Of a stretch of 64,000 nucleotides of DNA, positions 54,235 through 58,729 are shown piece after piece (the stretch's first letter is position 1; each line of letters begins with the position of its first letter). The notes beneath the pieces are model-generated. The model had not been told where the DNA came from. It worked only from the letters and a program-made list of their open reading frames with translations, and did no database searches. Source of the stretch: an uncultured Pelagibacteraceae bacterium (GTDB lineage: Bacteria > Pseudomonadota > Alphaproteobacteria > Pelagibacterales > Pelagibacteraceae). The stretch is taken from the NCBI GenBank assembly GCA_902628195.1, contig CACOLY010000001.1, positions 1-64,000 of the forward strand. The letters run 5' to 3'. Position numbers and translations under genes: made by a program.

Positions 54235-54723
54235 ATGCAATATAAAAATAATACTAAGCAGAGATTTAGTTCCATTCAAGGTTTAAGATCCTTAAAAGAC
54301 ACTTTGCCAAAAAATATAAAAAAAGTTATCAATAAAAGGGGCCAAATTTATTCAGAAACTTTAAATAACTGGAAGAACATAGCTGGAGAAAATCTTTTTA
54401 AATTTTGTTACCCAAAATCATTTAAAAATTCAAATAAATTTGGAGTTAGTACCCTTCTTATAATGGTAAAAAGAGGTCATGAGGTTGATTTAGAATATTC
54501 AAAAAAAGAAATCATAGATAGGATGAATAATTTTTTTGGGAATACAGTTGTAGAAAAGATTAAATTTACGAGTTTTGAAGAAGAGCTTAAAATTTCTAAA
54601 GATGATAATATTTTGAAAAAAAATGTGACAAAAAACAAATATCAAAAAAAAGTTAGTGATGTTAAAAATGAAAAAATAAAAAAATCACTTCTTGAGCTTA
54701 CAAAAGTATTTAAAGGAAAATGA
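54235..54723 (+). CDS. DUF721/DciA-like protein
   Basis: The 162 residues resemble DUF721 (DciA) proteins: a pattern like NWKNIAGENLFKFCYPKSF and a hydrophobic strand LLIMVKRGHEVDLEYSKKEIIDRMNNFFG. DciA assists loading of the DnaB helicase in many bacteria lacking DnaC. The order mutY / DUF721 / DsbA-like / smc is common in alphaproteobacteria. The ATG abuts the mutY start (CATATG), with no intergenic base. Confidence 0.8.
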   Translation: MQYKNNTKQRFSSIQGLRSLKDTLPKNIKKVINKRGQIYSETLNNWKNIAGENLFKFCYPKSFKNSNKFGVSTLLIMVKRGHEVDLEYSKKEIIDRMNNFFGNTVVEKIKFTSFEEELKISKDDNILKKNVTKNKYQKKVSDVKNEKIKKSLLELTKVFKGK

Positions 54724-55295
54724 AAAAAATTATCTTAATAATATTTATTTATTTTGGTATCATTACTAATATTAATGCTGAAGTTAAAAGAATAGTTTCA
54801 GGACAAGAAAATGCTAAAATTACAATTATTGCATACGAGTCTTTAACTTGTAGTCATTGTGCTGATTTTCATAAAAATATCTATCCTAAACTTAAAAAAG
54901 ATTTTCTTGATACTGGAATTGCTAAAATTGAATTTAGACATTTCCCTTTAGATGTTGCTGCTTTAAATGCTGCAAAAATTGCACAATGTAAAAATAATGA
55001 AAGTTTAAAAATATTAGAAAGCCTATACTTAAACCAGCAGGCTTGGATAAAAGGAAATTCAGTTGAAGATTTAAATAACCATCTTAAAAATTATTTAGAA
55101 AAAGGAGGTTTTGATATTAATTTTGAAAAATGTATTAAAAATAAGGAAATAGAAGATTTTGTTTTAAATGATCGAATCGAAGGTGTTAAAAAATTCAAAG
55201 TAAATGCTACTCCTACGATAATTATAAACAATGAAAAGTTTGAAAAGTCTCTAAATTATAAAAATTTAAAAAAAAAAATAGAAAAACTGCTATAA
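54720..55295 (+). CDS. DsbA-family thiol-disulphide oxidoreductase
   Basis: The 191-residue exported thioredoxin-fold protein has a signal peptide (about 1-20, cleaved near NINA-EV), the active site CSHC (Cys44, Cys47), a DsbA-like helical insertion, and a cis-proline loop in VNATPTIII. It probably forms or isomerises disulphides in the periplasm. It overlaps the DciA-like gene by 4 nt (ATGA) and precedes smc by 7 nt. Confidence 0.92.
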   Translation: MKKIILIIFIYFGIITNINAEVKRIVSGQENAKITIIAYESLTCSHCADFHKNIYPKLKKDFLDTGIAKIEFRHFPLDVAALNAAKIAQCKNNESLKILESLYLNQQAWIKGNSVEDLNNHLKNYLEKGGFDINFEKCIKNKEIEDFVLNDRIEGVKKFKVNATPTIIINNEKFEKSLNYKNLKKKIEKLL

Positions 55296-55302
55296 TCCAC
55301 TA

Positions 55303-57699
55303 ATGGAGTTTAAAAAAATTCAACTTAATGGATTTAAATCCTTTGCCGATAAAACAAATTTTTTAATTGAGGATGGTTTAACCGGAATAGTCGGGCCTAA
55401 TGGGTGTGGAAAATCTAATATTGTAGAATCCTTAAGATGGGTAATGGGAGAAACATCTGCAAAAAGTATGCGAGGTTCTGGAATGGAAGATGTAATATTT
55501 TCAGGTACTTCAAACAAACCATCAAAAAATATTGCTGAAGTTTCAGTTACTGTCGAAAACAAAGGTAATGAAGGGCCAGTTCAATTCAAAGGGTTTAATG
55601 AAATTCACGTCAGACGTAAAATTGAAAAAGATAAAGGATCTAAATTTTATATAAATGATAAAGAAGTGAGAGCAAGAGATGCTCAAATGTTTTTTGCTGA
55701 TTTATCAACTGGTGCTCATTCACCCTCGATGATAAGTCAAGGACGTATTGGAGCTCTTGTAACTGCAAAACCCACAGATAGACGTGCAATTTTAGAGGAA
55801 GCTGCTGGAATTTCAGGTTTACATGTTAGAAGGCATGAAGCTGAGCTTAGATTGGGAGCGGCAGAAAATAATTTAAAAAGGGCAGATGAATTAAGAAGAC
55901 AACAAGAAAGACAACTGGCTAATCTTCAGAAACAAGCTGAAGAGGCAACTAAATATAAAAATATATCTGATGAAATAAAAAGAATTGAGGCTGGTTTATA
56001 TTATTTAAAATTATTAGAAATAGATAAAGAAATAAGAGTTGAAAATGAAATTAATACAGAAGCTGAAGGAGAAGTGAGTGGCTATAATAATAAAATTTTA
56101 GAATTAGAAAAACAAATTAAATTTGAAACTGATAAGGTTACACCTTTAAGAGAAAAAAATATTGAAAATCTATCAAGAATTCAACGACTCAATCTAGAAC
56201 TTCAAAATTTAGATGAAGAAAATACTAGAACGCAAGAGGAGATAGAAAATATTAAAAAATCTTTGCAAACACTTGATGAAGATATTTCTAGAGAGAAGGG
56301 AATAATAATCGATGCAAACTCAAATGAAAAAAGGCTAAAGGAAGAAAAAAATGATCTTATAGAGATAGACTCAAAATATTACGAAACAGAAAAACAATCT
56401 AATGAAGATTTGGATCAATCAAAAAGTAAATTAAAAAATGAAATAGAAAATATTAGAACTTTAATTTCTAACAAACAAAATGCAGAAGCAATAAAAGCAT
56501 TAGATAATTTTCAATTTATTATAGAAAAGTTTGCAGAAAATTTTAGTAAAAATCAAAATATTAAAAAAGAGTCAGTAAAAAGAAACGAAAGAATTAGAAT
56601 AATAGAAAAAGAAATTGAGAGTTGGAAAAACTTACTTTCGAATTCTGAAAAAATGGTAAATGAACTTTCAGAAAGAAAAAATAAATCAAACTCTCAGTTA
56701 GAAAAACTTGATAATCAGCCCAAAATTCAGGCGGAAAAAAAAGGTCAAATCTCAGAAAACTTAAGAATATCTGAAAATGAAAAGACCGAAAATGAAAAAA
56801 TAATAAATGAAACTGATGAAAAAATAGAAAATTTAAGAGTTCAACTTAATGAAATTCAAGAACAATCAATTCAAATTAGGGAAAGAAAAGCTAGTTCAAG
56901 AGCAACTATAGATGGACTTAAAAAAAGAAAAAATGATTTAATTGATAGGATTGCTTCTGAACTAAATTTGAATGAAGATAATATTTTAGAAAATTCAAAT
57001 CTTAATGGAGTCGAAGAGCTTCCTGATGCAGTCAATCAAGAAGATTTATTGGATAAAAGAAAACAAGAAAGAGAAAGATTGGGTTCAGTAAATTTAAAAG
57101 CTGATGAGGAAACAAATAAATTTGAAACAGAAATAAAAAAAATGGAACAAGATCGAAAAGATTTAGTCACTGCAATTGTTAAATTAAAGGATAGTATTAA
57201 CGAATTAAATCAAAAAGGAAGAGAAAGATTAATTGAGGCCTTTGAAAAAGTTAATAGAAAATTTAATGAAGTTTATACAAAATTATTTAATGGTGGTAAT
57301 GCAAAGCTCGAGCTTGTTGATTCTGATGATCCTCTTGAGGCTGGATTAGAAATGTTAGTAAGTCCCCCTGGAAAAAGGTTGCAATCGATAACTTTATTAT
57401 CTGGTGGAGAACAAGCTTTAACAGCTTTATCACTTATATTTGCCGTTTTTTTAACTAACCCATCACCAATATGTGTTTTGGATGAGGTAGATGCTCCTTT
57501 AGATGATGCTAATGTAACAAGATTTTGTAACTTACTTGAGGAACTTATAAATATTACTAATACAAAATTTGTAATTGTAACCCATCACGCTTTAACAATG
57601 TCAAAAATGAATAGACTATATGGTGTAACAATGCCTGAAAAAGGAATAAGCCAGTTAGTTGCTGTTGATTTACAAAAAGCAGAGAGTATGGTTGCATAA
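55303..57699 (+). CDS. smc: SMC chromosome-segregation ATPase, short form apparently without hinge
   Basis: SMC compacts and helps segregate the chromosome with ScpA/ScpB. The ends are intact: Walker A GPNGCGKS (31-38), an R-loop/coil start, the signature LSGGEQ (699-704) and Walker B CVLDEVDA (724-731). At 798 residues it is about 350 short of usual SMCs (~1150). The middle (about 175-640) is almost unbroken coiled coil of Glu/Lys/Asn. I see no globular hinge with its glycine-rich interface. The frame is open throughout, so this is not a frameshift. RecN or RecF are unlikely given FKSFADKT at the start. Confidence 0.93.
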   Translation: MEFKKIQLNGFKSFADKTNFLIEDGLTGIVGPNGCGKSNIVESLRWVMGETSAKSMRGSGMEDVIFSGTSNKPSKNIAEVSVTVENKGNEGPVQFKGFNEIHVRRKIEKDKGSKFYINDKEVRARDAQMFFADLSTGAHSPSMISQGRIGALVTAKPTDRRAILEEAAGISGLHVRRHEAELRLGAAENNLKRADELRRQQERQLANLQKQAEEATKYKNISDEIKRIEAGLYYLKLLEIDKEIRVENEINTEAEGEVSGYNNKILELEKQIKFETDKVTPLREKNIENLSRIQRLNLELQNLDEENTRTQEEIENIKKSLQTLDEDISREKGIIIDANSNEKRLKEEKNDLIEIDSKYYETEKQSNEDLDQSKSKLKNEIENIRTLISNKQNAEAIKALDNFQFIIEKFAENFSKNQNIKKESVKRNERIRIIEKEIESWKNLLSNSEKMVNELSERKNKSNSQLEKLDNQPKIQAEKKGQISENLRISENEKTENEKIINETDEKIENLRVQLNEIQEQSIQIRERKASSRATIDGLKKRKNDLIDRIASELNLNEDNILENSNLNGVEELPDAVNQEDLLDKRKQERERLGSVNLKADEETNKFETEIKKMEQDRKDLVTAIVKLKDSINELNQKGRERLIEAFEKVNRKFNEVYTKLFNGGNAKLELVDSDDPLEAGLEMLVSPPGKRLQSITLLSGGEQALTALSLIFAVFLTNPSPICVLDEVDAPLDDANVTRFCNLLEELINITNTKFVIVTHHALTMSKMNRLYGVTMPEKGISQLVAVDLQKAESMVA

Positions 57700-57708
57700 T
57701 CTAAAATA

Positions 57709-57987
57709 ATGCCAAGAGATCAGTTCAAAACTCGCTTAGAGATTGCAAAAAAGAAGGTTTCAAAAAGAAATTTAGACAACAAAAATCACAATCCATCCCC
57801 TATTGGCTCAGCTTTTAAGCTAAGCACAGAATTAGTTTCTGCTGTGGTTGTAGGGACAATTATTGGGTTTATTTTAGATAAGACCTTTGGTACTAAACCA
57901 TGGTTAATTTTAATATTTTTTTTTGTAGGAGTGATTGCTGGTATTACCAATGTAATTAAATCTGCAAAGAATATGCAAAAAAAGTAA
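57709..57987 (+). CDS. atpI: AtpI/AtpZ-like F0 accessory protein
   Basis: The 92 residues have a charged N-terminus and two membrane segments (about 36-55 and 64-80) with the family pattern VVVGTIIGFILDKTFGTKPWLILIFFF, broken by a short loop. AtpI helps assemble the c-ring or supply magnesium. It heads the F0 operon atpI-atpB-atpE-atpF'-atpF, 9 nt after smc. Confidence 0.87.
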   Translation: MPRDQFKTRLEIAKKKVSKRNLDNKNHNPSPIGSAFKLSTELVSAVVVGTIIGFILDKTFGTKPWLILIFFFVGVIAGITNVIKSAKNMQKK

Positions 57988-57994
57988 AAAAATT

Positions 57995-58729
57995 ATGGCA
58001 ACAAATCCAATGACTCAATTCGAAGTATATAGAATTGGGCCAGAGATTAAAATAGGAACTTTTGATATTTCATTTACAAACGCTAGTTTGTTTATGGTTA
58101 TAAGTTCTATTGCAATTTTACTTATTTTTAATTTAAGTTCTAAAAAAAATTCAATATTACCAAATAAACTTCAATTATTAGCAGAGCTCAGTTATTCATT
58201 TGTATCAAAAATGATTAGTGATACAGCTGGTTCTAAAGCAAAACCATATTTTTCATTTATATTTTCTTTATTTATGTTTGTTCTTTTTTGCAACATGTTT
58301 GGAATGATACCTTACACTTTTACTGTAACTAGCCACATAATAGTGACCTTTGTTTTAGCAGCATTTATATTTATCGGAGTTACAATTATTGGTTTTGTAA
58401 AACATGGTTTTGGCTACTTAAAACTTTTTGTACCAAGTGGAGTTCCTGTTGTTTTGCTTCCTTTAATTGTAATAATTGAAATAATTTCTTATTTAAGTAG
58501 ACCTATTAGTCTTTCAGTCAGACTATTTGCAAATATGATGGCAGGTCATACGATGATGAAAGTTTTCGGAGGCTTTGTAATAAGTCTTGGAATAGTCGGT
58601 GGATGGCTTCCACTGAGTTTTTCGGTTGCATTAACTGGTTTGGAGATCTTAGTTGCTTTTCTTCAAGCTTATGTTTTTGCAATCTTAACATGTATCTATT
58701 TAAATGATGCATTAAATTTACACCATTAA
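57995..58729 (+). CDS. atpB: ATP synthase F0 subunit a
   Basis: Subunit a forms the proton half-channels. The 244-residue multi-span protein has the key arginine in SLSVRLFANMMAGH, LVAFLQAYVFAILTCIYLNDA at the C-terminus, and GMIPYTFTVTSH. Normal size for alphaproteobacteria. It is followed by atpE with 18 nt between. Confidence 0.97.
   Translation: MATNPMTQFEVYRIGPEIKIGTFDISFTNASLFMVISSIAILLIFNLSSKKNSILPNKLQLLAELSYSFVSKMISDTAGSKAKPYFSFIFSLFMFVLFCNMFGMIPYTFTVTSHIIVTFVLAAFIFIGVTIIGFVKHGFGYLKLFVPSGVPVVLLPLIVIIEIISYLSRPISLSVRLFANMMAGHTMMKVFGGFVISLGIVGGWLPLSFSVALTGLEILVAFLQAYVFAILTCIYLNDALNLHH

Follow-up and report, generated by a model that had tools for sequence, protein, structure and literature searches.

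The window analysed here, a 64,000-nucleotide stretch of DNA from an uncultured member of the Pelagibacteraceae (SAR11), encodes an Smc protein in which all head motifs are intact and the hinge is absent (Table 1). Its reading frame comprises 798 uninterrupted codons from the ATG at 55303 to the stop at 57697-57699, and the translated protein contains Walker A (GPNGCGKS, residues 31-38), LSGGEQ (residues 699-704) and Walker B (CVLDEVDA, residues 724-731). The original prediction, made from the sequence alone, had described an open frame of 798 residues with intact head motifs at these same positions and an apparent lack of the hinge, and each of these claims held. The protein scores 669.4 bits against TIGR02168, the SMC_prok_B equivalog model of NCBIfam (cut-off 567.35), with only weak secondary matches to Rad50 models (17-45 bits, where the cut-offs are at least 700). 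The relatives with a name, at 85-89% identity, come from single-cell genomes and MAGs of Pelagibacteraceae, including Pelagibacterales bacterium SAG-MED30 at 86%, which places the window in SAR11.

Table 1. Genes and protein features at the smc locus, in window coordinates; residue numbers refer to the 798-aa Smc.
Feature	Position	Strand	Basis
dciA-domain (DUF721) gene, upstream of smc	54235..54723	+	Pfam PF05258
Thioredoxin-fold (DsbA-like) gene, directly upstream of smc	54720..55295	+	Pfam PF13462
smc, hinge-less Smc, 798 aa	55303..57699	+	Open frame, head motifs, SMC_prok_B match
N-terminal head half, residues 1-172, Walker A 31-38	55303..55818	+	Motifs, Pfam, AlphaFold2 model
N-terminal coiled-coil arm, residues 173-389 (predicted helices 173-247, 258-389)	55819..56469	+	AlphaFold2 model
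N-arm sub-apical segment, residues 331-360, low entropy	56293..56382	+	Entropy 0.64 and 1.19 bits
Apex replacing hinge, residues 376-405, predicted helical hairpin, turn 390-392	56428..56517	+	AlphaFold2 model, entropy, dN/dS
C-terminal coiled-coil arm and joint, residues 393-653	56479..57261	+	AlphaFold2 model; end at 653 set by analyst
C-arm sub-apical segment, residues 406-450 (...KRNERI...W441...), low entropy	56518..56652	+	Alignment, entropy
C-terminal head half, residues 654-798, LSGGEQ 699-704, Walker B 724-731	57262..57696	+	Motifs, Pfam, AlphaFold2 model
atpI-like gene, directly downstream of smc	57709..57987	+	Pfam PF09527
atpB (ATP synthase A chain)	57995..58729	+	Pfam PF00119

The source genome is a 1.02-Mb draft in 43 contigs, 93% complete, in which the protein is the sole match to itself at E <= 1. 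The original prediction had suggested looking for scpA and scpB elsewhere in the genome, and both were found, adjoining each other on another contig. Across the order, ScpA is encoded in 248 of 297 genomes (137 of the 150 of high quality), and ParB in 18 of 21 genomes, including this one. The gene neighbours in the window are those of canonical alphaproteobacterial smc loci, a correspondence read by eye only on the canonical side, from translated loci with dciA- and dsbA-like genes before smc (L166) or atpB after it (L189). Since the partner genes for ScpA, ScpB and ParB are present and the neighbours are of canonical type, the hinge-less protein represents this genome's resident Smc rather than an extra copy.

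Absence of the hinge and its distribution

The Pfam hinge model (SMC_hinge, PF06470) found no match in the 798-aa protein or in the 93%-complete draft genome, where 12 of 14 controls were positive. This model is insensitive in Alphaproteobacteria, reaching 16 bits (cut-off 22.5) on a canonical SMC (L200), 14 bits and nothing at all on two short SMCs that do carry a hinge (L159 and L187, respectively), and passing its cut-off in no more than 40 of 96 genomes of the class. It was consequently set aside as the only hinge test, and its weakness in the class led us to build our own HMM from 32 canonical alphaproteobacterial SMC hinges. Applied to 151 SMC proteins longer than 600 aa from 200 loci, the 32 profile sources included, this HMM matched all translated SMCs at least 950 aa long (again counting the sources), the shorter L158-L161 and L187 at 78-101 bits, and a 909-aa protein truncated by the end of its locus (L116). 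Three SAR11 rows reached only noise level (<=1.5 bits), and the other SAR11 rows, as well as those of the f25/MarineAlpha6 lineage, were unmatched. Profile-profile comparison of five apex alignments with the hinge gave 0.08-0.40%, compared with 99.7% (E 5.6e-27) for a control group of short-armed, hinge-bearing SMCs that was absent from the profile. A hinge vestige at the apex thus has no profile-profile support and was rejected. A second hinge model, intended for SMCs of other classes, was discarded as it spanned nearly whole proteins.

Genome searches with a hinge alignment (A4) were likewise negative in all 39 SAR11 genomes searched, this one included, and in three f25 genomes, while eight of eight other Alphaproteobacteria were recovered at E <= 2.4e-43; the 39 genomes were hand-picked from the 297, and some of the controls are perhaps close kin of the A4 rows. 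A separate gene encoding the missing hinge, which together with a hinge match in the middle region had been named as an outcome that would refute the original prediction, was not found in the 93%-complete draft by either the Pfam or the A4 search. A CXXC zinc hook was found in none of the 103 translated hinge-less rows. Fifty rows from a Foldseek search against the PDB were all SMC, condensin, cohesin, Smc5/6, MukB or Rad50 structures, none of which matched the apex.

Comparison of smc length across SAR11, also proposed at the outset, shows that hinge loss is not a local deletion but a trait found throughout the sampled order. An SMC match is present in 266 of 297 sampled genomes (140 of the 150 of high quality), including 11 single-contig genomes. 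The hinge is missing in all 98 translated SAR11 rows, nine of them from single-contig genomes; 97 are complete, at 798-881 aa. Together with five f25/MarineAlpha6 rows these make up the 103 hinge-less rows, which were not de-duplicated and of which one, from SAR11, is truncated. Their lengths fall at 798 (45 rows), 857-859 (31), 803-817 (15), 863-864 (7), 880-881 (3) and 800 aa (1), plus the truncated row of 760 aa. The SAR11 forms differ in length at the apex (residues 376-405). Within the window's genus we observed two discrete SMC lengths, 798 and 857 aa, with the 59-residue difference at the apex, at residue about 390. One SAR11 smc (G108:C2:149616-152057) contains an in-frame TAG.

Ten of the 150 high-quality genomes have no SMC match, and a renewed search of eight of the ten with all candidates scored again returned none. 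ScpA is present in all eight of these (G058, G111, G117, G145, G151, G156, G158 and G159) and in G019, for which no SMC match was recorded; the high-quality genome G180 matches neither. Because these genomes are drafts of 90-97% listed completeness, we read the missing SMCs as assembly gaps, which is likely and remains unproved. In a sample of the wider class, for which three first-look candidates were scored per genome, 89 of 289 genomes (62 of 235 of high quality) had no match to the SAR11 SMC, the protein being diverged, absent or missed.

Arms, apex and conservation

The loss is accompanied by a shortening of the arms that the original prediction had not described. With identical head boundaries set by the analyst for all rows, 20 of the 32 canonical SMCs were measured and have an N arm of 328-336, a hinge of 140-148 and a C arm of 362-381 residues (329/363 for the two arms in 14 of the 20, the others being close), and in four short-armed hinge-bearing rows the corresponding values are 189-196, 142-143 and 216-217 residues. 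Across 11 SAR11 rows, arms and apex add up to 480-565 residues, the lower value being that of the 798-aa form and the upper that of the longest. Even counting the whole apex as arm, each strand of the 798-aa protein is about 106 aa shorter than canonical, and the canonical requirement of arms of about 340 residues is unmet; assuming arms equal to those of the short-armed hinge-bearing relatives, about 70-74 residues are left for its apex. At 240, the half-length of the 798-aa form is close to the published mode of natural SMC arms, 238 aa (PMC5344682), an agreement that we do not count as evidence because the other measured SAR11 forms (246-283) and the short-armed hinge-bearing SMCs (203-207) are off the mode and the head boundaries were set by the analyst. 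The survey behind that mode retrieved sequences through dimerisation-domain alignments and was hence blind to hinge-less SMCs. A cut at the elbow (cf. PMC8279761) was tried as the origin of the short SAR11 arms and rejected.

An AlphaFold2 model of the 798-aa Smc, computed from 37 sequences and of moderate confidence (mean pLDDT 78, pTM 0.48; block pLDDT 82-90 over residues 331-420), predicts two long helices joined by a hairpin turn at 390-392 with no globular apex. The stretch after about residue 400, which had been taken to resemble a post-hinge coil, is indeed the C-terminal arm. For the 857-aa form the predicted apex is all helical, with an extra tip helix at 422-444. In the SAR11 sister family f2 (L055-L058, L123-L125), a conserved VEGYD...W was seen at the apex of L055-L058.

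Among 53 SAR11 sequences, left after thinning 90 rows at 92% identity, entropy peaks at the tip, where residues 391-405 vary more than any other block (2.18 bits, against 2.00 at 376-390 and a near value of 2.05 at 496-510); below the tip, both strands have low values (0.64 bits at 331-345, 0.85-0.87 at 421-450). Within the tip hairpin, certain hydrophobic positions such as A396, L400 and F/Y410 are nevertheless retained across forms. Over 53 pairs of 798-aa genes, dN(region)/dS(gene) averages 0.19 at the tip (361-405) and 0.01-0.02 in the head regions; the sub-apical segments lie at 0.037-0.038, and the remainder of the N and C arms at 0.043 and 0.060, respectively. The whole protein is under purifying selection, with the tip least constrained, and the sub-apical coil stands out by entropy but not by dN/dS. 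Canonical SMCs are mildly conserved at the matching mid-arm places (matched by eye), and the conserved sub-apical coil is for this reason probably older than the loss of the hinge; it possibly serves something older than dimerisation.

Other lineages and the number of losses

Hinge-less SMCs of 803-817 aa also occur in f25 (L094-L096) and in its close relatives MarineAlpha6_Bin4 (L122) and SP38 (L121; 86-87% identity). In a head-domain tree of 48 rows chosen from the 151, which included no Actinobacteria, the SAR11 heads group among Alphaproteobacteria and form one clade (100/99); MarineAlpha6, whose rows are of unusual composition, stands apart on a long branch, and two changes are counted. 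AU tests did not reject a grouping of SAR11 with MarineAlpha6 (p 0.187), with MarineAlpha6 and the short-armed hinge-bearing SMCs (p 0.098) or with the latter alone (p 0.061). With a tree that counts two changes and AU tests that allow a single origin, both histories are compatible with the data and we see little to choose between them.

The short-armed hinge-bearing group (AG-891-G06, AG-893-E21, AG-895-J15, AG-899-L06 and one further MAG), which we take to be perhaps the HIMB59/AEGEAN-169 clade, has SMCs (L158-L161, L187) with the hinge on arms of about 190-217 residues. PMC10308909 yielded no mention of these SAGs, and PMC7203096 nothing about the hinge. A 1.4-Mb single-contig genome (G326) with a hinge match at E 7.9e-46 and an 869-aa frame likely belongs here, judging by frame length and hinge match only; with it included, the SMCs measure 869-881 aa. 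Short arms with a hinge may be an intermediate design, and these relatives suggest a route in which the arms shortened first and the hinge was lost later, a possibility that the trees leave unsettled.

A third candidate is the 906-aa SMC of isolate SP335, labelled Gammaproteobacteria (L165:3001-5718). It shares 54% identity over residues 1-363 with an SMC of 1167-aa frame (G737) from the same phylum and a class other than that of SAR11, and appears hinge-less because the 90 residues between the aligned blocks, where G737 has about 355, are too few for a hinge. Its middle region gives 0.12-0.15% against the alphaproteobacterial hinge, but 30 canonical SMCs of its own kind span 2.7-96.5%, and the length argument is the stronger of the two. 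No hinge-less relative of it appeared among the matches considered from 398 genomes of the phylum. By eye, an apparent DNA ligase gene follows this smc.

Interpretation and comparison with known systems

In models of how SMCs act, the hinge is the constitutive joint of the dimer, contacts DNA and may open as a gate. On the strength of similarity and gene position, we lean towards reading the protein as the Smc subunit of a SAR11 Smc-ScpAB condensin, its dimer held by heads, kleisin and contacts of the arms or tip; the reading rests on the SMC_prok_B score above cut-off, the order-wide occurrence and the retention of ScpA, ScpB and ParB genes, while dimerisation and the entrapment or extrusion of DNA are inferred. 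The distal arms and globular hinge are missing, and the arms end in what is predicted to be a small alpha-helical hairpin. In this scheme Smc would still use ATP to load onto the chromosome and translocate along it, with its loading linked to ParB as in other condensins. Two Smc subunits would be joined by ATP-dependent head engagement, ScpA with ScpB would bridge the heads, and the rods would pair along the coil just below the apex (331-360, 406-450), perhaps with a contribution from the tip hairpin. The type of apical clasp would then be replaceable, with heads and arm geometry doing the work. The original prediction that a hinge-less SMC would need another way to dimerise, or may work as a rod, is compatible with the evidence, the mode of dimerisation being inferred only.

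Several observations speak against this reading. The tip evolves fastest, unlike a conserved dimer interface, and our confidence is lowered further because dN/dS fails to set the sub-apical coil apart. Published hinge replacements favour the reading, but a dimerisation domain was still present in them: Bacillus subtilis grows normally when the hinge of its Smc is swapped for an unrelated Rad50 zinc hook, the arm dominating the phenotype (PMC5344682), and in fission yeast Rad50 an SMC hinge can stand in for the hook (PMC6969161). The SMC-negative high-quality genomes, among them the one that is also ScpA-negative, count against it as well.

The closest rival dispenses with apical dimerisation altogether, leaving two rods joined only at the heads and kleisin as an open tweezer in place of a closed SMC-kleisin ring. 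The poorly conserved tip, the lack of any CXXC hook in the hinge-less rows and a model without a globular apex all favour it, while the hydrophobic tip positions kept across forms do not. A non-pairing apex cannot be excluded, though it is less likely and more radical than rod pairing. It is very unlikely that a hinge is present but diverged past recognition, at least in the 857-881-aa SAR11 forms. Subtracting the arms of the short-armed relatives leaves these long forms an apex of roughly 130-160 residues, where a hinge has 141, and the VEGYD...W of f2 vaguely recalls the start of a hinge; against this stand the profile-profile values, far below the control, the all-helical apex predicted for the 857-aa form and the much smaller apex of the window's own form.

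Equally improbable is that the condensin role was abandoned for that of a repair ATPase of Rad50, SbcC or RecN type. Rad50 and RecN are likewise built from a head and coiled coil with no SMC hinge, and Rad50 models do return weak matches; these lie far below their cut-offs, however, and the missing CXXC, the retained ScpA, ScpB and ParB genes and the gene neighbours shared with canonical smc loci (by eye for L166 and L189) all argue otherwise. The draft state of the genome might suggest an assembly deletion, frameshift or pseudogene, but the identical 798-aa length in 45 of 103 rows (not de-duplicated), the missing hinge in every SAR11 row, those from single-contig genomes included, and strong purifying selection all but exclude it, and the order-wide comparison rules out an artefact of frame or assembly.

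Returning to the condensin reading, a clade that keeps Smc, ScpAB and ParB but no hinge constitutes a natural experiment on the minimal DNA-folding machine, in abundant, cultured bacteria, and indicates that the hinge may be non-essential to how SMC motors work. A bolder version, which we consider unlikely, holds that the apex of the SAR11 condensin ring always stays open, that apical dimerisation is dispensable, and that marine bacteria lost the hinge repeatedly, namely in SAR11, in f25/MarineAlpha6, in one or more records labelled Gammaproteobacteria and in the Actinobacteria already published. If the open-apex reading were true, a closed SMC-kleisin ring would be dispensable for chromosome organisation.

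Hinge-less SMCs as a kind are already published, a point that, like the existence of short-armed hinge-bearing relatives, goes beyond the original prediction. An abundant clade lacking the zinc hook was described in marine Actinobacteria in 2025 (PMC12153180), with speculation on another function or different DNA binding; SAR11 and Pelagibacter are unmentioned in its main text. We found no report of a hinge-less SAR11 SMC in the open-access literature searched, which leaves out most subscription papers and all bioRxiv preprints, and within that scope the SAR11 case appears unreported and extends the hinge-less SMC from Actinobacteria to a second phylum. Both types combine an SMC head and coil with neither hinge nor CXXC hook and come from oceanic bacteria. 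The SAR11 protein differs in having alphaproteobacterial relatives and gene neighbours, in occurring across a whole sampled order and in that its partner genes were checked, a contrast drawn without direct sequence comparison.

Rad50/SbcC resembles the SAR11 protein in a coiled coil that ends without an SMC hinge; the latter has no zinc hook, scores as an Smc and stays below cut-off for the Rad50 equivalog models. The engineered B. subtilis Smc (PMC5344682) likewise lacks its own hinge, but is a laboratory construct with a Rad50 zinc hook instead. With the canonical alphaproteobacterial Smc (TIGR02168, Smc-ScpAB) the SAR11 protein shares its heads, coiled-coil arms, neighbours and the presence of ScpA, ScpB and ParB in the genome, whereas its 480 hinge-free residues of arms and apex take the place of 329 + about 141 + 363. 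The short-armed Smcs (L158-L161, L187 and probably G326) have undergone the same strong arm shortening, yet they have kept, at 78-101 bits and, for G326, at E 7.9e-46, the hinge that SAR11 has lost.
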